This document shows positions 3,809-19,192 of a DNA stretch of 38,786 bases, one piece after another. Both the position numbers and the translations under genes were made by a program. The DNA is taken from the IMG/VR virus record IMGVR_UViG_3300017527_000735, positions 1-38,786 of that record; one strand, given 5' to 3'. The DNA comes from a virus. Position 1 is the first letter of the stretch; the number at the start of each line of letters is the position of its first letter. The notes under the pieces are model-generated. The model was not told where the DNA came from, did not search any database, and saw nothing but the letters and a program-made list of their open reading frames with translations.

Positions 3809-6447
3809 TACTGTACCCCTGCCTCGGCAACACGTCGTCGTGACCCAGGACGAATGCTAGCACCACGACGTTGATCAACATCAAGAGTGTGTCTACCAAC
3901 AGCTCTAGCAATTTCTCGACCATCAATTACAACAGGAATTTCGATCGTCTCCTCGACAGTAAACGTACCACCACCTCCACCATCACCCTGTGGAGTTGCA
4001 GATACTTGCTGTGGTGGTGGAGGTTGAACCAAAGCACCTGGAGCACCAGCCATTGCACGAGCAAGTTCATTCCTATGAATGAGAACATCACCAGCAGTCA
4101 CCGGGAATGGAAGATACCCAGAACTACCAACCACAACATCTCCACCAACACCACCACGAGTTGATTGAAGACCTGCAAGTTCGCCACCGCCACGCAATGC
4201 ACCACGTCTAAACGCAGAAGTTGCTTCCTCCGATGCAATCGTCAACAATCTGAGAGACGCTGCAGTACCGTCAACTGAATGACCAGTTCTCTCATATCTA
4301 TCTCGTTCAGAACTGATTGAAAGCCCCAATTGATCAAATTGACGAATCGTCTCTTGAACTTCCCCACGCATTCCTTCAACACGTTCATCAGACATTCCAC
4401 CACGACGCAACGCTCTCATAGTTGCAGCTTCACGATACGCGGCAGTATTACCTTCACGTGCACTCATAACAATAAGACGTTGCAAGTCTTGACGCCGCTC
4501 AAGGTTGGTAGCTCGCATGCGAGCATAACCAGCCTCACGACCAGAACGACCAGCCTCACTTCGGCGGACCTGAGTCTCACGACGTGCAATTCTCTCATTG
4601 ACTGGAGCCGTCTCACGTGCATATGTTGATGCACGTTGAGCTTCGAGAGTGTCATTTACCTCTGAAAGTTCCCGATTTGCTAAAACAATACGACCAATTG
4701 ATCGTGCAGCTCGATTCAAAATTGGAATATGAGTCAACCAACCAACACCAGCTTCATTCAAATATTCATCTGTCTGACGCCCCATCTCTTCATATGTAGT
4801 TCCAAGTCCAGCCGCTTCAGCAACGTGTGCACCAAGAACATCGCCAAGAGCAAGAGCCGCAGGAATCGCCATAACCCAAAATGCAATCATCCCACCGAGG
4901 GAAGTACCGGCAGCATGCCCAGCAATTGTGAAAGATGTAAGTTTGATAGTCAGTGCATTCAATCCAATTGCAGCACGCCCCATAGCAGCAACCATCTGTG
5001 CACCAAAGACAGTAATAAGTGGACGTATAATACTACCAACCGCTAGCAATGCAATTGACAATCTAGGCCACTCAGCAGTAAAGCGACCAACAGCCAAACC
5101 AATGCGACCGAGAATCCTCAAAAGCTCAGCAAGTCCTTCGAGTGTTCTACGAAACTCACGACCAGACTGACGCAGCTCAGGAGTCAACTCAGAATACTGT
5201 TCGAGCATGATGCCGGTCATCTCAGTGTTCTCATCAGCACCACGCACAGCCAAAGCTAGGTTACTGAGATACTCACCGAATCCACCATTGGCTTCCTCGA
5301 ATGGACCAATGAGCATTTGCATGAACGTGATACCGAACTGCTCAACTGCCACCCTAGCGAATCGAAGTTGTGCCCCAAATCCTCGAGTGTTCTCCTCTGC
5401 TGCCTGTGACATACGCGCAACATTCTCTTCCGAATCTGACAACTCCTCCAAGACATTGCGGAAGTCATTGGCTCTCGGGTGCAATCCAGAGAGAATGACA
5501 CCAGCCGCATATGCACGACGACCAAACAATGCAGTCGCCAACGTCAATCGTGCAGCGTGTGTTGGTAGGTCCTCAAAAATTCCTGTAAGTTCATCAGAAA
5601 CCTCAGTCATTCGACGAAGACTACCATCATTATTATAAAGAACACGATCCAATCTCTCATGCTCGAGGTTATTATCGCGCATGACATCACGAGACCGACC
5701 AGTAATTCTCGTCAATGCGAGCATCGCTCCACGAAGACGAGTACCAGCAGTCGTACCACGAAGACCAATTGATGACAGAGCACCGAGAGCAGACGCCACC
5801 TCATCGGCTTGGAAGCCCATAGCAGAAAGCTCGACACCTGCATATCGGAACGCTTGCTGCAACTGAGGGATTGAAGTAGATGACATACGAGCAGCAACCG
5901 TGATAGTAGCTGCAAGTCGCTGCGCTCCCTCTTCACTCTGATCGTTGAACTGACGCATAGAGTCAACAACAACTTGTGTCGCAGATTCTAAATCTGAATT
6001 CGAAGCTGCTGCGAACTGACTGATCGTTCCAAAGTATCGCATCGCCTCATGCGCTTGAACACCGGTCTCGAGCAACGTGCCCATTGCCTCAGTGGACTCA
6101 CCAATTCCAAACCCGTATTGCCTTGCAGCCACTTCTGCAGATGCAAGCATTCCAGTTTGAAGTCGCATGCTGGAGCCAGTAGATGCAAGAATACCTCGAA
6201 GACGAGCGTTCGCATTCGAGAACCGTTCATAGCTACGAACGGCTGAACGTGCAGCTATACCAGCTCCAACCATGACAGCACCGGTACCCATGAGCATGTT
6301 GTTCATACCCAACAGTCCAGCACGAAGTCTTTGAGTCCATTGGAAGAGACCTTGGAGGGTAGCTCTCGCGCGCCGAACACCAGCTTCGAGCGGTCTCGAA
6401 TTCATCTTGAAGTTGATGATGGCTTCTCTGATCGTTGATTTTGCCAC
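3808..6447 (-). CDS. tail tape measure protein (TP901 family)
   Basis: An 879-residue protein that sets tail length and is ejected with the DNA. Residues about 70-260 are Ala/Gly-rich helices of the TP901-1 tape-measure type, with segments such as ALSSIGLRGTTAGTRLRGAM. Hydrophobic stretches, probably membrane-active, lie at about 455-545. The C-terminal third is charged and coiled-coil prone, and a Gly-rich linker lies near residues 820-830. The start is GTG, chosen because AGGAG lies six bases upstream. It is short for a tape measure, so the tail should be fairly short. It directly follows the frameshifted chaperone pair, as in lambda. Confidence 0.9.
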   Translation of the reverse strand: MAKSTIREAIINFKMNSRPLEAGVRRARATLQGLFQWTQRLRAGLLGMNNMLMGTGAVMVGAGIAARSAVRSYERFSNANARLRGILASTGSSMRLQTGMLASAEVAARQYGFGIGESTEAMGTLLETGVQAHEAMRYFGTISQFAAASNSDLESATQVVVDSMRQFNDQSEEGAQRLAATITVAARMSSTSIPQLQQAFRYAGVELSAMGFQADEVASALGALSSIGLRGTTAGTRLRGAMLALTRITGRSRDVMRDNNLEHERLDRVLYNNDGSLRRMTEVSDELTGIFEDLPTHAARLTLATALFGRRAYAAGVILSGLHPRANDFRNVLEELSDSEENVARMSQAAEENTRGFGAQLRFARVAVEQFGITFMQMLIGPFEEANGGFGEYLSNLALAVRGADENTEMTGIMLEQYSELTPELRQSGREFRRTLEGLAELLRILGRIGLAVGRFTAEWPRLSIALLAVGSIIRPLITVFGAQMVAAMGRAAIGLNALTIKLTSFTIAGHAAGTSLGGMIAFWVMAIPAALALGDVLGAHVAEAAGLGTTYEEMGRQTDEYLNEAGVGWLTHIPILNRAARSIGRIVLANRELSEVNDTLEAQRASTYARETAPVNERIARRETQVRRSEAGRSGREAGYARMRATNLERRQDLQRLIVMSAREGNTAAYREAATMRALRRGGMSDERVEGMRGEVQETIRQFDQLGLSISSERDRYERTGHSVDGTAASLRLLTIASEEATSAFRRGALRGGGELAGLQSTRGGVGGDVVVGSSGYLPFPVTAGDVLIHRNELARAMAGAPGALVQPPPPQQVSATPQGDGGGGGTFTVEETIEIPVVIDGREIARAVGRHTLDVDQRRGASIRPGSRRRVAEAGVQ

Positions 6448-6456
6448 ACGAGACTC

Positions 6457-6648
6457 CTAAGCGCCTGCGTACTTACGTTTCAATTGTATCAAAATTTCGA
6501 ACGCTATATTCCTTTCTTCCTTAGTCCATTTTGTCACATCGAAGGACGCAGCACCATTGGTTCCCATACCGAGTAGTATTACCTCCTCGATCGCCTCCTT
6601 CGTTGACTGGATCGGGAAGATTGCCTGAAAAAATTTGAGTACCTCCAA
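6457..6648 (-). CDS. tail assembly chaperone, -1 frameshift extension
   Basis: This short frame overlaps the end of the zinc-ribbon gene in the -1 frame and stops just before the tape measure. Its only in-frame start is a TTG placed inside the overlap, so independent translation is unlikely. Read through the slippery site at 6627-6633 it adds 56 residues, helical and ending KRKYAGA, to the first 310 residues of the upstream product, giving about 366 residues. This mirrors lambda G/GT. The role in binding the tape measure during tail assembly is inferred from position. Confidence 0.7.
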   Translation of the reverse strand: MEVLKFFQAIFPIQSTKEAIEEVILLGMGTNGAASFDVTKWTKEERNIAFEILIQLKRKYAGA

Positions 6649-7556
6649 TCGATCATATGGTCGAATTCACGATCGCATTTCGGGCAGTTTCCTTCGATGG
6701 ACCATTCAGGCCCACCAGCAGACAGATCAACCTCTTCAGCAAAGATTGACATATCCCATTTCAAAAGCTGAGCAACATCCTCGTCTGTCATGGTCGAGCC
6801 TTCGCCAAGACCATCGATTTCAACAACAACATCTTTGACCATCGAACGGAACATCTCTGTCTCGTTCGTATCAGGAGCATGAGACAGAGCAAGGAAAGTG
6901 GCCGGTCGAATCTTGACCCTCTTCCTCACCTCACCAACCACCTTGAATCCATCTCTGAGATCAATCCATTTGTACAGACTCTTTGGATCTTTCCGAGTTG
7001 CAATTTCAAGTGAGTTGAGATCGACTGGAAAGTTGAACACGTGCTTGCACTTTGGACACTCGATGTCCTTGATTGTGAAAATGTCACCGAGTGATGCAAT
7101 GCGAGCCATCGTGTACATATAGAAGATGTCGCCGCCGAACATATTGTTCAGAACCGCCATGCGACGTTCTGGCTTGTGCTTCTTGAAGCTCTCACCTGCA
7201 AGCACTGTCACGGTGTAAACAAGCACACAGACAAGATAGTCGAGGATGGTTGCGTCAGGTTGGCGTTGAACCTTCTTCCATATCTCCGAAATCTCACGCT
7301 CGAGATTCCAATCAATGCCAATGACATCGAAACTCTTCCGTAGAACTTCACGCTTCCCCTTGTCGTCCTCGACAACATCCAGCAAACCAATTGGTAAGTT
7401 CTTACCAAGCTCACTAAGAAGCACAAGCTTCGGAATCTGACCACAGTGTGGGCATAGGTCTACACCAGCAGGACACTTCCGTCCACACTCGACGCACACA
7501 ATCTCTTCTATCTCTGGTTCTTCATCGCGCAGGAGTTGCGCTGCTTTATTGCTCAC
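6579..7556 (-). CDS. zinc-ribbon tail assembly protein (T4 gp26-like family), zero-frame product
   Basis: A protein of about 325 residues with three CxxC-type zinc sites: CVECGRKC with CPHC near the N terminus, CPKC near residue 160, and CPKC near residue 295. The middle (FYMYTMARIASLGDIF, then a zinc ribbon) recalls baseplate and tail-chaperone proteins of the T4 gp26 family. I place the start at the GTG at 7556, since GGAGG lies five bases upstream; a GTG at 7586 has no ribosome site. The zero-frame tail is a very basic RS/RR stretch, lost when the ribosome shifts frame. It lies between tube and tape measure, the standard place for the tail chaperone. Confidence 0.7.
   Translation of the reverse strand: MSNKAAQLLRDEEPEIEEIVCVECGRKCPAGVDLCPHCGQIPKLVLLSELGKNLPIGLLDVVEDDKGKREVLRKSFDVIGIDWNLEREISEIWKKVQRQPDATILDYLVCVLVYTVTVLAGESFKKHKPERRMAVLNNMFGGDIFYMYTMARIASLGDIFTIKDIECPKCKHVFNFPVDLNSLEIATRKDPKSLYKWIDLRDGFKVVGEVRKRVKIRPATFLALSHAPDTNETEMFRSMVKDVVVEIDGLGEGSTMTDEDVAQLLKWDMSIFAEEVDLSAGGPEWSIEGNCPKCDREFDHMIDWRYSNFFRQSSRSSQRRRRSRR
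6627..6633 (-). other. programmed -1 ribosomal frameshift site T TTT TTC
   Basis: Read on the minus strand, the zero-frame codons are AAT TTT TTC, giving the slippery heptamer T TTT TTC. Slippage lets the two tRNAs re-pair on TTT TTT and continue with CAG in the frame of the 6457 extension. A GGAGG (6642-6646) lies eight bases upstream, like the Shine-Dalgarno stimulator of E. coli dnaX. I did not identify a downstream stem-loop. Confidence 0.75.
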
Positions 7557-7603
7557 TACATCCTCCAAATATGCACCAATGTGCACTTGTGAGAGACGTT
7601 ACG

Positions 7604-8041
7604 TTATCGTGGGAAGATCTGGTCTACGCTCATCGACCATTCAAGCTCGTCCAGCTCGCCTTCGTTCTCCATCTCCAGATCGGAAGTGACTCGCTTCCAA
7701 ACCCAAAGACCTTGCAGGAGATACGTAGCAATGCCGAATCCAGAAATCGAACGCTTGAGCAGCGTACCGACCTTCTTGTACGTAGGGAATACTGGATCTT
7801 GCCCTTCACTGAACCAGTTCTCCATCGCGATTCGTTCGATGAAGTGGTGGGTCGGGTGTCGGACATTGAATTCGGTTGACTTGGTATTGCCACCCGAAGC
7901 CGCTGTCCGATCAGGCATATCCACCTTCTCCAGTTCTTCCTCGAGACTCCCGACGAAGGTGAACGTGATCTCGGGCAAGCCGACCACCTTCAGCTTGTAC
8001 TTATTTCGCGGGATATGATCCGGTGCGATTGCGCCTTTCAC
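7604..8041 (-). CDS. tail tube protein (gp19-like)
   Basis: A 145-residue protein, the usual size for contractile-tail tube subunits. It begins with a strand (KYKLKVVGLPEITFTF), has a loop with a T-E-F-N-V-R-H-P segment, and ends in strands around LLQGLWVWKRV. This order matches the T4 gp19/Pvc1-type tube fold. The start is GTG with AGGAGGA eight bases upstream. It lies two genes after the sheath and before the tail chaperone, as in most contractile tails. Confidence 0.8.
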   Translation of the reverse strand: MKGAIAPDHIPRNKYKLKVVGLPEITFTFVGSLEEELEKVDMPDRTAASGGNTKSTEFNVRHPTHHFIERIAMENWFSEGQDPVFPTYKKVGTLLKRSISGFGIATYLLQGLWVWKRVTSDLEMENEGELDELEWSMSVDQIFPR

Positions 8042-8458: not shown

Positions 8459-11400
8459 CTACACCGTGCCTTCCACCACCCCCATCGGACCGATGAAGAT
8501 ACGGAGACGTTCGATGGTATCGGCAAGACGCAGGGAAATCTCGACGATCTGATCGCCATCTCCTCGCGTTGCGTCGGTGTTGTTCTCAGCATCCATCTTG
8601 AAAATGGCTGCTGGATTCTGACCGTTGATGAATGCCGCACCACGAAGAGCCCGTTTCCTGTACTCGGGCAGGAAGTAGTCGTGGAGAACGGCAAGCACGT
8701 CGGCATCTGCTTCCGGATCGTTGATGTCGAAGATGGTGAAATCGAATCCTTCGAGAAGATCGATCTCATACTGCGACAGCATCGCACGCTTGTGATAGAA
8801 GCGGAACGCGGTCGATTCGGCGAGTGTCCTGTCACCCCAAAGGATGACGTAGACCCCGCCTTGCTTCCACTTGACCACGTTGATACCGGATGGGTTGAGA
8901 ACTTCCTCGTCGAGTTGAGTCGGATTCTCTGGTTTGCCCACGACTGGAAGCTCGATGACATCGGGAAGCGTCGCCTTCGTACCAGCGGGTGCCTTGTGGT
9001 AACCCTTGTACTGGTGTGCGATGCGAGCTTCCTCCCCGAGGATGTACCCCAAGAGAGGCACGATGATGGCTCGAGCTTCTGACTCGGCTTCCGCGAACGG
9101 GTCTCGAATGTACCCGTAGTTTGGGAAGTGAGTTGTCGAGTAGTCCGCGTCGTCGCCACGAACGAAGGTGTTCGTGAGCCAGTCCACGAGATCGTACTCG
9201 TAGTACACATCCCAATCGTGGAATGACCACGGCATCTCGACCTTGTTGCCCCAGTTGAACCTGGCAGCGAGCGTCTTGAGCTTCTGTTGGAATGCGAGTG
9301 CCTGTGAGAGATACCCAAGACCAGGCGCAGCCATCTTGACCAGCCCGTATCCACGTCCGCGAAGGTTCGCCAGAGGCGTCGTCCCAGGATCGATCAGTTG
9401 TTCGTAGTCGTTGGTTGCCATCCCAGCAAGGTATCCATCGTACCCCTGTTCCATCTGAGTGCGGAGCTGGATACGATACTGCTTGCCAGCCGTGTTCGAC
9501 CCACCGTCCGTGAGATCGTTCAGGACCGAAACGTCGACCCAATCGACATCGTTGTCGATGATCTCGAAGTTCTGGTTTCGCTGCGCCACGTCCTCGACGT
9601 TCGGGTAGACACGACCACCGATGGCTTCATCGATCTCCAGAGGCTTCAGGTAGACGTAGAAGACATCAGCAGCTTGCGGAGTCCCCGAAGCTGTGGTGAC
9701 AGTCATGTCACCAACTTGGTCGCCCATGTCAACAGCTCCACCAATCGAACCGCTCCAAGTCCTATTACCTTGGTCAGTTGCAACCGTGAAGTCTGTCACA
9801 TTGCTCATGGTGATAGTGAGCATCTGAGGCTTCGCATCCGAGCCCCATGAGTTCCACGTGAGCGTCGGAACCCAATCACCACCAACCGAAAGGCCCTGGT
9901 AGTACGGGTCCGCAATCGTCAGACGTGTCGTCGTGAGCGCAGCCGACTGTCCAAAGTGATTCGCCGGTCGTGCCGTCGCCTGGAGGCGATCACCAGTGAA
10001 CACATCCGTGACCGTGATCACATCATTCTTCTTGTCCTGGTTGATCGTGTCCGCCCAATAATTGGACTTACCTGAGTCCATCGACAGGTTCTCGTACTTG
10101 AGAACCGTATCGCCATTGATCCGAACGATCATCCCGAATTCACTTCCAGGTCGCAGAGCACCGTCACGGAATTCGATGCTGCACGCCTTGAGCTTGTCAC
10201 GGTAGTTGATGTTCGTGCGTACGAGCGTCACGTTCAAGCTGGCATCGCTCCCATCGTGCTGGGCTCCATCGAACCCAAGCAACGTGATGAGGTTCCCACT
10301 CATCGTGACATAGCCACCAGAGCCGGATACGATCGTCGTGACAGTGAACGTGGTACCAGATGCGATAGCGGTTGCATCCGACGCACCAAGACCAATCGCC
10401 GTGGTCAAAGCAGTCGCCATCTCAGCAGCAGTCGCCGCGAAGTGGTTGACCACATCACCCGTACCAGCCGTCTCCGTTGGAGTCGTCGTGCTGAACACGT
10501 CTGAGATCATATCGGTCGATTCTGCAGCATCGATCGTGACAGTTGCTCCACTGCCCATTTGATCGGTAGTAACCACGACATTACCAGCAGCATCGGAAGC
10601 ATTGACACCTGGAATGGCAGCATCGATTGCATCGATGTAATCATCGATCGCAGCCTCGGTACCAGCGAATGTCACTCGATAGATGACACCGTTGACATCG
10701 AAGTCAATCCACTCTGCGCGTGCATTGAACGCTGGAACTCCATCGTCACCAACAGTCGCAGCAGTTGCAGCGATAGTTGCAGTGTCCGGACCACCAGTCT
10801 CGGTCGTGACAGCAATCGTCCATGCTGACGAGACCGTTCCAAGGTTGTACGTCTCAGCACCAGACGTTTCACTGCCGAACATCTCACCAGCAGCTCCACC
10901 CCAATCAGCCTCGACGTCTTGGTCGGGCTCGAGTGTGATGAGACCGGTTGGGGAGTTGTTGACAATCTTGTACGAACTACCAGGAATCCCCTCGAGTGTG
11001 ACGCTTCCATTCCTGAATTCGTCGTACTTGAGCGTCAACGCTGCAAGTCCATAGAGCTGAATCTGATTCGATGCTGGGAAATCGTTGCCCGGTACGCCTT
11101 CAAGCACACCGAGGTAGACCTTGCGCTTGCCAGCCCATGCTCCACCGTTGTGAGCTTCGATGGTACCGAGGACCACCGGCTCCGCTTCGCGGTTCCACAC
11201 AGTGAGTACGGACTTGTCCGGTGTGTCGTCCTGTGATCCATCGACGAACGTCGGCACCACACGCATGCAGATGAGCGTACCCGCTCCCTTGGACCTCTCC
11301 CAGAAATGCTTCGCCATGAGAGGTGTCCACACACTCGCGTACGTCATGACGTCGTATTCGGCAGGATCGAGGAGACCACCCATCTTCCGCCCGAGAGCAC

Positions 11401-11563
11401 GCTTGCTGGGGAGAATCGTGATGCCACCCTCGAGTCCACGTTCAAATGGTCCGATAAGAACGGTAGAGCCGAGTCTCCCCTGCTCTATCGTTTCGTCGCC
11501 GGTCCTCTCATTGACCTGTGTACCTGCGCCCAGAATCGGACCAAATACCCTTGCTTCAGACAT
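8459..11563 (-). CDS. tail sheath protein (gp18-like)
   Basis: A 1034-residue contractile sheath subunit. The N terminus (EQGRLGSTVLIGPFERG) and the C terminus (GDGDQIVEISLRLADTIERL, then a final FIGPMGVVEGTV strand) match the arms that interlock sheath subunits. It is much longer than T4 gp18 because residues about 215-430 hold a Thr/Ala/Gly-rich insertion that appears to contain two similar beta domains, each with an helical ATALTTAI-type element and an ITLLGF-like closing strand. The start is ATG behind GGGAGGA. It has higher GC than the flanking tail genes, consistent with high expression. Confidence 0.88.
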   Translation of the reverse strand: MSEARVFGPILGAGTQVNERTGDETIEQGRLGSTVLIGPFERGLEGGITILPSKRALGRKMGGLLDPAEYDVMTYASVWTPLMAKHFWERSKGAGTLICMRVVPTFVDGSQDDTPDKSVLTVWNREAEPVVLGTIEAHNGGAWAGKRKVYLGVLEGVPGNDFPASNQIQLYGLAALTLKYDEFRNGSVTLEGIPGSSYKIVNNSPTGLITLEPDQDVEADWGGAAGEMFGSETSGAETYNLGTVSSAWTIAVTTETGGPDTATIAATAATVGDDGVPAFNARAEWIDFDVNGVIYRVTFAGTEAAIDDYIDAIDAAIPGVNASDAAGNVVVTTDQMGSGATVTIDAAESTDMISDVFSTTTPTETAGTGDVVNHFAATAAEMATALTTAIGLGASDATAIASGTTFTVTTIVSGSGGYVTMSGNLITLLGFDGAQHDGSDASLNVTLVRTNINYRDKLKACSIEFRDGALRPGSEFGMIVRINGDTVLKYENLSMDSGKSNYWADTINQDKKNDVITVTDVFTGDRLQATARPANHFGQSAALTTTRLTIADPYYQGLSVGGDWVPTLTWNSWGSDAKPQMLTITMSNVTDFTVATDQGNRTWSGSIGGAVDMGDQVGDMTVTTASGTPQAADVFYVYLKPLEIDEAIGGRVYPNVEDVAQRNQNFEIIDNDVDWVDVSVLNDLTDGGSNTAGKQYRIQLRTQMEQGYDGYLAGMATNDYEQLIDPGTTPLANLRGRGYGLVKMAAPGLGYLSQALAFQQKLKTLAARFNWGNKVEMPWSFHDWDVYYEYDLVDWLTNTFVRGDDADYSTTHFPNYGYIRDPFAEAESEARAIIVPLLGYILGEEARIAHQYKGYHKAPAGTKATLPDVIELPVVGKPENPTQLDEEVLNPSGINVVKWKQGGVYVILWGDRTLAESTAFRFYHKRAMLSQYEIDLLEGFDFTIFDINDPEADADVLAVLHDYFLPEYRKRALRGAAFINGQNPAAIFKMDAENNTDATRGDGDQIVEISLRLADTIERLRIFIGPMGVVEGTV

Positions 11564-16936: not shown

Positions 16937-17617
16937 CTACGCAGTCTCAAGTAACACTCTTAGTGTACCATCGATGGGATCGGGGACTTCCTCGGTGCAC
17001 AGAAAATCGTAGATACCCTGCGAGAGCACTTTGTATTGATACAACCCGTTTTGCATGACCAATCCATAGAATGCCGGCGTTGCCATGAAATCGTCAAGCG
17101 CCTGCTCGAGTGTCGCTCCGCCAGCAACGAAGGCATCCTGCGCTCCTGGCTGTCCAGCGAAAGCGACCATCGCTGCCTTCATCAGTTGAGTCAGACCCGG
17201 CGCCCACATTGAGCCCGATCGAGTGAAGCCATCGTAGGGCTGCACGGTCCCCGTCGAGCAATCTGGACAGGTTTCGCCAAGACCCCGATCCTGCCACGCC
17301 AGGCATGCTGCGTCGTCGCACCGTCCTAGGGGCGGTCCGTCACTTCGAGGGTCACCACCTGGCAGGGCCGGGCGAGCGTGTGGATTCATGCCGTTGCTGA
17401 TCCGGTAATACTGAGCGATGGCGTGACTCTCGGGGTCCATCTGCTCGACGAACACGGGCGGATCGCCGACCTCTCGCCCCCAAACGACGAAGACATCGAC
17501 ATACTGATGATTCATTCCGGGCGCGTGCTTGCAGAGGTTATTTTCAATCTCGATCCTCATGGTGCGCGCCATGTCGAGCGTGACGGACTGTTTAGGTTGC
17601 GCGAGTATTACGGGCAT
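16937..17617 (-). CDS. hypothetical protein with Cys cluster
   Basis: A 226-residue protein of unknown family. Residues about 100-122 hold a C-x4-C then C-x2-C arrangement (RCDDAACLAW, then ETCPDC), probably a zinc site. The flanks are a strand-rich N-terminal domain (VDVFVVWGREV) and a helical C-terminal half. The start ATG has CGGAGG upstream. It overlaps the end of the glycosyltransferase gene by 26 bases, so the two are translationally linked. The N-terminal part resembles small neck proteins only in size; I give no function. Confidence 0.7.
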   Translation of the reverse strand: MPVILAQPKQSVTLDMARTMRIEIENNLCKHAPGMNHQYVDVFVVWGREVGDPPVFVEQMDPESHAIAQYYRISNGMNPHARPALPGGDPRSDGPPLGRCDDAACLAWQDRGLGETCPDCSTGTVQPYDGFTRSGSMWAPGLTQLMKAAMVAFAGQPGAQDAFVAGGATLEQALDDFMATPAFYGLVMQNGLYQYKVLSQGIYDFLCTEEVPDPIDGTLRVLLETA

Positions 17618-19001
17618 TCCATGCCTCCGATGTCTGGCGGTAGACCTCGACGGTCTGCGCCGCTATGTTGTTCCAATCGAACCTGGGGTCCTTCACTCTC
17701 TTCAGACCAAGCCCAGAGTAGATCTGTTGTCCCGTTTCGTTGTCTAGGAACCACCGCAACGCGCTGGCAATCGCCTTCGAGTCCCTCGGTGGGATAATCA
17801 TGGCGTAGTCTGTCTTGCCATCGCTGACGATTTCACCGAGTCCATTCATCGTCGTCGCGATGAGAGGTGTCCCCATTGCCATCGCCTCGAATGCGACGAT
17901 TCCAAATGGCTCCGTTGTCGAAGGCATGATTACGCACTGAGCTGCGGCGTAGAGGTCCTGCAACTCCTGGTCGCGTTGGAATCCGAGCCAGGCGAGTCGC
18001 TTGGGATATTTCTTCTCAAGCGCTCGTATCCACTGCGTGACGTACCAGTCCTCTCCACCGACGTCGGCATTGACCTCGCCTGCGATGACGACCTGATATC
18101 CCGTGTCTTCGTCAGACACAGCTTGGAGGATGTACTCGATCCCTTTCATGGTGGCGATTCGACCAACGAAGAGAGCAATGGGTCGCCATCCGATCTTGTC
18201 GTGGGTCTCTCGGGCCCGCCGAGCATCACCAGCCCCTGGGTGCCAGTCTCCGCAGTCGATACCATTTGGAATCATGAACGGGCTTTTTTGCCACATCGAA
18301 TTGATTTTGTAATACTTTTCCGACATCTCGCAGTAGGCATGCGAGCACAGGATCAGCTCATGCGTCTCAATGTTGAGCTTCCCCTCCTGATTTGCCGTCC
18401 AAGCATCGCACTCGAGACCGGCTGCCTCTTGGACGATGATACTCTCTCGGATCTTCTTTTTCTGGTTCCGAGTCAGCGGTTTGGCTTCTTTTTTCACGAG
18501 CGACTCTTGGTATTCCTTGAGCAGCACCTTGGTTCGTTTTGGGAGCTTCATGGGCTTGTCGAGATCCCACAGGGATCGCATGCACAGGTGCATCGTGCCA
18601 ACGATAGGCAATTCGAGCACGCGCGATGCCATCTGTGCAACCTGCAGGGAACTCCACTCGTGAGCGTGGATCACGTCCCACTTATAACCAGAGTTGACCA
18701 TCTCAAGGAGGCGCGAAAGCCACATCACATCCGTCTGGAAGACCGACCGTATGCTGGGAAATCGGCCCTTCTGCGAGGCAATCACATCCCACGTCCACTT
18801 GCGGTAACCGTGATATTCCACAAATGGTTTGTGCTCGTCATGCTCATCGAGCTTTGCAGGGCATGCCGTCAAGAGGTCGATCTCGACGTCATCCCGCTGG
18901 GCCATGTGGCGATAGAGTTCCCGGATGTGCCGGCCCATCCCGCCAAGCAACATCTCGGGATCTTCGACGCATATCGCTAGAACTTTCAACACTCCGGACA
19001 T
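17592..19001 (-). CDS. GT-B glycosyltransferase (GT4/GT5-like)
   Basis: About 469 residues with both Rossmann halves of a GT-B retaining glycosyltransferase. The N-terminal half has a glycine loop (LLGGMGRHIREL) and WDVIHAHEWSS. The C-terminal half has ALFVGRIATMKGIEYI and, near residue 365, the E-x7-E motif EPFGIVAFE, which contacts the nucleotide sugar. A Lys-rich helical insertion lies at about 155-195. The N terminus resembles glycogen-synthase-like GT4 enzymes. I start at ATG 19001 because GGGGAG lies just upstream; a GTG at 19007 is possible. It sits inside the virion operon. Acceptor unknown: virion protein, DNA or host glycan. Confidence 0.85.
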   Translation of the reverse strand: MSGVLKVLAICVEDPEMLLGGMGRHIRELYRHMAQRDDVEIDLLTACPAKLDEHDEHKPFVEYHGYRKWTWDVIASQKGRFPSIRSVFQTDVMWLSRLLEMVNSGYKWDVIHAHEWSSLQVAQMASRVLELPIVGTMHLCMRSLWDLDKPMKLPKRTKVLLKEYQESLVKKEAKPLTRNQKKKIRESIIVQEAAGLECDAWTANQEGKLNIETHELILCSHAYCEMSEKYYKINSMWQKSPFMIPNGIDCGDWHPGAGDARRARETHDKIGWRPIALFVGRIATMKGIEYILQAVSDEDTGYQVVIAGEVNADVGGEDWYVTQWIRALEKKYPKRLAWLGFQRDQELQDLYAAAQCVIMPSTTEPFGIVAFEAMAMGTPLIATTMNGLGEIVSDGKTDYAMIIPPRDSKAIASALRWFLDNETGQQIYSGLGLKRVKDPRFDWNNIAAQTVEVYRQTSEAWNARNTRAT

Positions 19002-19192
19002 ATCCACTCCCCGCCTTCGTATCGCCAGCCTCGATCTTTGAATGCGTTCGCCGCAGCGCCGATGCCAAAAGTCAATAGATTGCCAGACTGGACGAATTGA
19101 CCTTCGATGCGCTCACACGTTCCACATTGGACGTAGTACGTGTCCGGCTGTCCAATCGGCTTACCGAAGTCCCTCCCGAGCTTGAATACCAT
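18986..19192 (-). CDS. small zinc-ribbon protein
   Basis: A 68-residue protein with two CxxC pairs: VQCGTCE near residue 23 and WICPEC at the very end, about 40 residues apart. A Trp-rich hinge (GWRYEGGEW) precedes the second pair, as in treble-clef or rubredoxin-like ribbons. Its ATG overlaps the upstream stop (TAATG) and its end overlaps the glycosyltransferase start, so the three genes are tightly coupled. Function unknown. Confidence 0.7.
   Translation of the reverse strand: MVFKLGRDFGKPIGQPDTYYVQCGTCERIEGQFVQSGNLLTFGIGAAANAFKDRGWRYEGGEWICPEC

Follow-up and report, generated by a model that had tools for sequence, protein, structure and literature searches.

The window, that is, the whole stretch of DNA analysed here, is a 38.8-kb viral fragment (IMG/VR record IMGVR_UViG_3300017527_000735, positions 1–38,786). 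The left part of the window is a tail module encoded on the minus strand and contains the following features:

8459..11563, minus strand: tail sheath gene (phrog_17610, tail sheath, E = 4.8e-12)
7604..8041, minus strand: gene of a probable tail tube protein, directly upstream of the chaperone gene; assigned by its position and its conservation beside the chaperone
6579..7556, minus strand: predicted short tail assembly chaperone (TAC-N), PF12322; 325 aa from GTG at 7556, listed ORF from 7586
6642..6646, minus strand: GGAGG, Shine–Dalgarno-like, 8 nt upstream of the heptamer, within conserved W–R codons
6627..6633, minus strand: zero-frame slippery heptamer T_TTT_TTC; proposed site of tandem slippage of two tRNA-Phe into the −1 frame
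6579..6626, minus strand: overlap, with the zero-frame tail RQSSRSSQRRRRSRR*, weakly conserved and predicted to be disordered
6457..6627, minus strand: −1 extension (TAC-C), QAIFPIQSTKEAIEEV..., 56 codons and a stop; modelled as helix–loop–helix
3808..6447, minus strand: tape-measure protein gene (PF10145, E = 2e-26; phrog_1533, tail length tape measure)

The sheath gene predicts a contractile tail for the phage of the window. A small ORF sits between the sheath gene and the probable tube gene. The probable tube protein is 86% identical in the nearest relative, L007 (IMGVR_UViG_3300037851_000433), and 47% identical in viral contig L009; a comparison with the PDB gave a weak tail-tube match only (E = 0.12). 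The tape-measure ORF begins at 6447, 9 nt past the stop of the −1 extension, and the order of sheath, tube, chaperone, extension and tape measure recurs in several isolated phages.

Zero-frame protein

The short form matches the PF12322 (T4_baseplate) profile with 35.6 bits against a cut-off of 24.5 (E = 1e-8; profile positions 61–209 of 219), which bears out the earlier assignment of the zero-frame protein to the T4 gp26 family, and it also matches phrog_150 (E = 3.8e-8). A Foldseek search with the short form gave E-values down to 6e-16 with models of T4-like baseplate hub assembly proteins. In its PDB fold search, the HK97 chaperone 2ob9 took the fifth and tenth places with non-significant scores (E = 1.1 and 2.2, probability 0.30 and 0.25).

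A GGAGG at 7562–7566 (minus strand) is located 5 nt before the GTG at 7556, which lies 30 bases downstream of the longest-ORF start at 7586. Judging by this GGAGG and by homology to L007, the GTG at 7556 is likely to be the true start of the chaperone, rather than 7586. Counted from this GTG, the short form has 325 aa and the shifted form 366 aa. The zero frame ends with the stop at 6579, and its tail after Phe–Phe is predicted to be disordered (pLDDT < 50, residues 324–335).

Slippery site and extension module

Minus-strand positions 6646–6627 read GGAGG TACTCAAA TTTTTTC, and the zero-frame codons at the site are TGG AGG TAC TCA AAT TTT TTC AGG. Read one base back, the sequence becomes TTT TTT CAG GCA ATC (F F Q A I), so that a −1 slip would join ...YSNFF to QAIFPIQSTKEAIEEVILLG...; the −1 frame is then open until the stop at 6459–6457. 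The preliminary description had placed T_TTT_TTC in the zero frame, the extension in the −1 frame and a GGAGG eight bases upstream of the heptamer, and reading of the minus strand at 6633–6627 and 6642–6646 agrees with it on each of these points. The AlphaFold model of the extension module is a helix–loop–helix (pLDDT 86.8); the fold search with the extension alone gave no significant match.

The window contains four copies of TTTTTTC, and shuffles gave an expectation of 5.02; the heptamer per se is therefore not significant, and it is the comparison with relatives that carries weight. The significant features, in sequence terms, are the in-frame place of the heptamer at the gene end and its conservation.

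The GGAGG had been described as a stimulator of the shift. Its duplex with the anti-Shine–Dalgarno sequence (−10.6 kcal/mol) is indeed the strongest in the chaperone gene; however, the sequence at this position is GGAGA in L007 (−6.4 kcal/mol), and the pairing is missing from most of the family, so the GGAGG is not a defining part of the site. It may be a lineage-specific stimulator that could raise the efficiency here. Downstream folding in the window was not above chance (z = 0.55, −1.01 and 0.81 for 74, 104 and 40 nt; 0.32 in a second run).

Comparison with the nearest relative

The zero-frame protein gave no matches, either by tblastn in the phage collection or as the single query of a scan of viral contigs. 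L007 was reached via the major capsid protein and is the only close relative that covers the chaperone locus; the other capsid relatives, L003–L005, end short of it. Contigs L029, L030 and L032, retrieved with a degenerate DNA pattern for FFQAIFP, were discarded as chance matches.

The zero-frame protein of L007 is 63% identical to that of the window and the extension 74–75% identical. The 27 bases around the heptamer (CAAATTTTTTCAGGCAATCTTCCCGAT) are the same in both, so that the heptamer is kept exactly. Before the heptamer, substitutions are spread over zero-frame codon positions 1, 2 and 3 as 26/19/54; past the zero-frame stop, they are spread over −1-frame positions 1, 2 and 3 as 10/6/18. 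Since the wobble substitutions shift from the zero to the −1 frame, the coding constraint changes frame at the heptamer. Within the overlap, the −1 reading is identical in L007 at 14 of 16 positions, against 9 of 16 for the zero reading, stop included.

Two further observations concern the structural genes of the window and the capsid relatives. A group 1 glycosyltransferase gene is found amid the structural genes of the window (17592–19007, minus strand), and a 44% identical copy occupies the same place in L003. In the portal region of L005 (4593–7397), the matches fall into two blocks, 4593–5834 and 6762–7397, about 0.9 kb apart; the gene looks as though it were interrupted by an insert or an intron.

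Slippery heptamers in the family

A set of 23 distinct loci was assembled via the tube-like protein and PF12322 relatives, with L039, a near-copy of L038, as an extra; it includes viral contigs L009, L011, L034, L037 and L038, plus annotated phages. The tube-like protein was also used to scan bacterial and archaeal genomes, with no hits. Of the 23 loci, 14 have the conserved extension in the −1 frame and nine in the +1 frame. The automatic choice of frame had put L037 among the +1 loci; this was rejected, its −1 extension being the homologous one.

An X_XXY_YYZ heptamer is present in the possible shift window of all 14 members with a −1 extension, where about 1.0 would be expected from the background, and in none of the nine +1 members. 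It is T_TTT_TTC in 12 of the 14, T_TTT_TTT in XacN1 and C_CCT_TTC in L038. In three members the shift window is very short (L034, 13 nt; Vibrio phage 2.275 and Phosso, 16 nt each), so the heptamer fills nearly the whole of it. Elsewhere in the 23 family genes (last 150 nt excluded), zero-frame T_TTT_TTN occurs at none of 5,394 codon positions, and the X_XXY_YYZ background amounts to 0.35–0.53% of positions. A heptamer would be present with a probability of 0.06–0.71 per gene if the encoded protein and the codon usage of that gene are taken into account, since the conserved Phe–Phe makes it easier to obtain; the product is about 1e-9 with shared ancestry ignored. Conservation of the heptamer in relatives, which the preliminary description had set as a check on its proposed −1 frameshift at T_TTT_TTC, was thus found both in L007 and across the family, and together with the switch of constraint it supports that proposal.

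Large, strong stem-loops are found a few bases past the heptamer in Atu_ph07 (L021), Phosso (L025) and XacN1 (L022), with z = −7.0, −4.5 and −4.9, respectively; these three phages have no Shine–Dalgarno-like site at the heptamer. The slippery site would accordingly be the conserved part, and the helpers appear to vary between lineages. The outer stem in Atu_ph07 and Phosso pairs the same places with some bases different. One member of the set, L013 (LR756511), is an uncultured phage of 595 kb with an unannotated record; it carries a PF12322-like chaperone, T_TTT_TTC and a −1 extension.

Relatives with a +1 extension

The nine loci with a +1-frame extension are L012 (BRock), L014 (GXN1), L015 (SP-15), L016 (LR756508), L017 (LIS04), L018 (GiJojo), L019 (LuckySocke), L020 (Mel-JY01) and L023 (Slickus01). 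The reading frame of their extension is already open where the zero frame ends, and several records annotate it as a separate hypothetical protein. This layout suggests +1 frameshifting; the candidate shift sites are TTT C and CCC/GCC/ACC CGA, with the exact site not pinned down. By HHalign, the modules of the −1 members are homologous to those of the +1 members (probability 96.6%, E = 5e-10; at most 0.18% in twenty column-shuffled controls).

It seems rather probable that the PF12322 module is joined in three ways: by a −1 shift at T_TTT_TTC in the window and 13 others, by a +1 shift elsewhere (SP-15, LIS04, GXN1, the BRock group, Mel-JY01, Slickus01 and a 484-kb phage), and as part of a separate gene in T4 gp51. 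If so, it is the need for two forms that is conserved, not the decoding mechanism. At best, three changes between the −1 and +1 directions can be placed on the tree, which also fits one. The apparent use of +1 shifts by relatives might be the part that a specialist would find new. The loci combine a single slippery heptamer with stimulators that vary and with relatives of the +1 type, and they form a comparative set in which the evolutionary retention or replacement of a decoding event can be tested.

Proposed mechanism and alternative explanations

Taken together, the data make it very probable that the gene in the window encodes a PF12322 tail assembly chaperone of a contractile-tailed phage, produced as a short form and a −1-shifted long form. 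That the shift takes place, and how often, is inferred from sequence comparison, as are the partners of the protein and its role as a chaperone; the last of these is deduced from the place of the gene, its family and the lambda model. Most ribosomes would read to the zero-frame stop and yield the short form of about 325 aa. A minority would slip one base back on T_TTT_TTC at a low to moderate rate, both Phe-tRNAs re-pairing perfectly or by wobble, and would add the helical module of 56 residues, so that the long form reaches about 366 aa. On the model of lambda gpG/gpGT, the tape-measure protein, whose gene is the next one, would be coated by numerous short copies and a small number of long ones, the module would recruit tail-tube subunits, and neither form of the chaperone would stay in the virion.

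The downstream module might instead be translated as a small protein by itself, either from a start codon in its frame or by translational coupling, with no fusion. L034, Atu_ph07 and Phosso do carry a −1-frame ATG that overlaps the zero-frame stop (ATGA), and the window has a TTG at 6648, before the heptamer and with no Shine–Dalgarno sequence; its only other −1-frame starts near the site are an ATG in the middle of the module and, further on, a GTG. L007, however, keeps the TTG only, inside a conserved Asp–Trp codon pair, the internal ATG and the GTG being lost there; in L011, RaK2 and PA5oct the extension frame lacks start codons in its near part; and it is right at the heptamer that conservation of the −1 reading sets in, rather than at a start codon. 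The preliminary description had noted that the downstream frame has no good start. None of the three codons is indeed usable, and it is quite improbable that the −1 frame is an independent gene that yields a separate protein.

The shift of frame could also arise during transcription, if RNA polymerase slipped on the run of six T at the site in some transcripts. Six T is short for transcriptional slippage, though, and L038 and L039 have C_CCT_TTC, which is no homopolymer, at the same place. In addition, the T run always stands in the X_XXY_YYZ phase, which is relevant to ribosomes only; slippage of the polymerase is accordingly a still weaker candidate than a separate protein. A homopolymer is a usual place for a frame-breaking mutation or a sequencing error, either of which could have split a once-continuous gene, but the same frame relation is found in 14 divergent family members with independent sequences, and such an origin can practically be discounted.

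Under ribosomal −1 frameshifting, the small orphan ORF between the chaperone gene and the tape-measure gene would be explained, which is of use for phage annotation. In T4-related and jumbo phages, many of the genes labelled 'baseplate hub' or 'hypothetical' may likewise be readable as chaperones with a hidden frameshifted long form.

Comparison with known systems

The E. coli dnaX gene combines the heptamer A_AAA_AAG with a downstream stem-loop. The site in the window had been likened to it, and the likeness holds for the presence of a Shine–Dalgarno-like sequence upstream of a canonical −1 heptamer; it does not extend further, as the window differs from dnaX in having no downstream stem above chance and in that its GGAGG is not conserved.

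In phage T4, gp26 (E = 9e-64) and gp51 (E = 4e-52) both belong to PF12322, as does the short form in the window. T4 gp26 stops at the end of the PF12322 domain and has no extension; gp51 continues for about 48 residues past it, in register with the modules, although the match is weak (E = 0.094 to the −1 set and 0.004 to the +1 set). The two T4 proteins are encoded by separate genes on opposite strands, whereas the window has one gene and a probable −1 shift. According to PMC10885494 and PMC12846349, Vladimirov, Gautam and Davidson (2022) had suggested a role as tail assembly chaperones for gp26/gp51-type proteins, and some T4-like phages have short and long chaperone genes instead of frameshifting. 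A gp26 without and a gp51 with the extension match this published two-gene view. The preliminary description had suggested that the shifted product links two chaperone styles; this did not hold, since gp51, itself a PF12322 protein, has a C-terminal tail where the module sits.

Lambda gpG/gpGT, with the conserved tail-gene frameshift (Xu, Hendrix and Duda 2004; reviewed in PMC5009743), resembles what is predicted for the window in having a short and a frameshifted long form encoded directly before the tape measure and in the use of a −1 slippery heptamer. Unlike the lambda protein, the zero-frame protein of the window matches PF12322 and no lambda-type chaperone family in profile searches. In Pakpunavirus Adele, and in Vandenendeviridae and Andersonviridae (PMC12846349), a myovirus chaperone gene carries a poly-T −1 site that is conserved and precedes the tape measure, as in the window; the slippery motif of the Adele-type chaperone locus, GTTTTT, is a different one. 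Judged against these systems, the −1 frameshift would be the ordinary route to the long form, and the predicted chaperone of the window is of a known kind.
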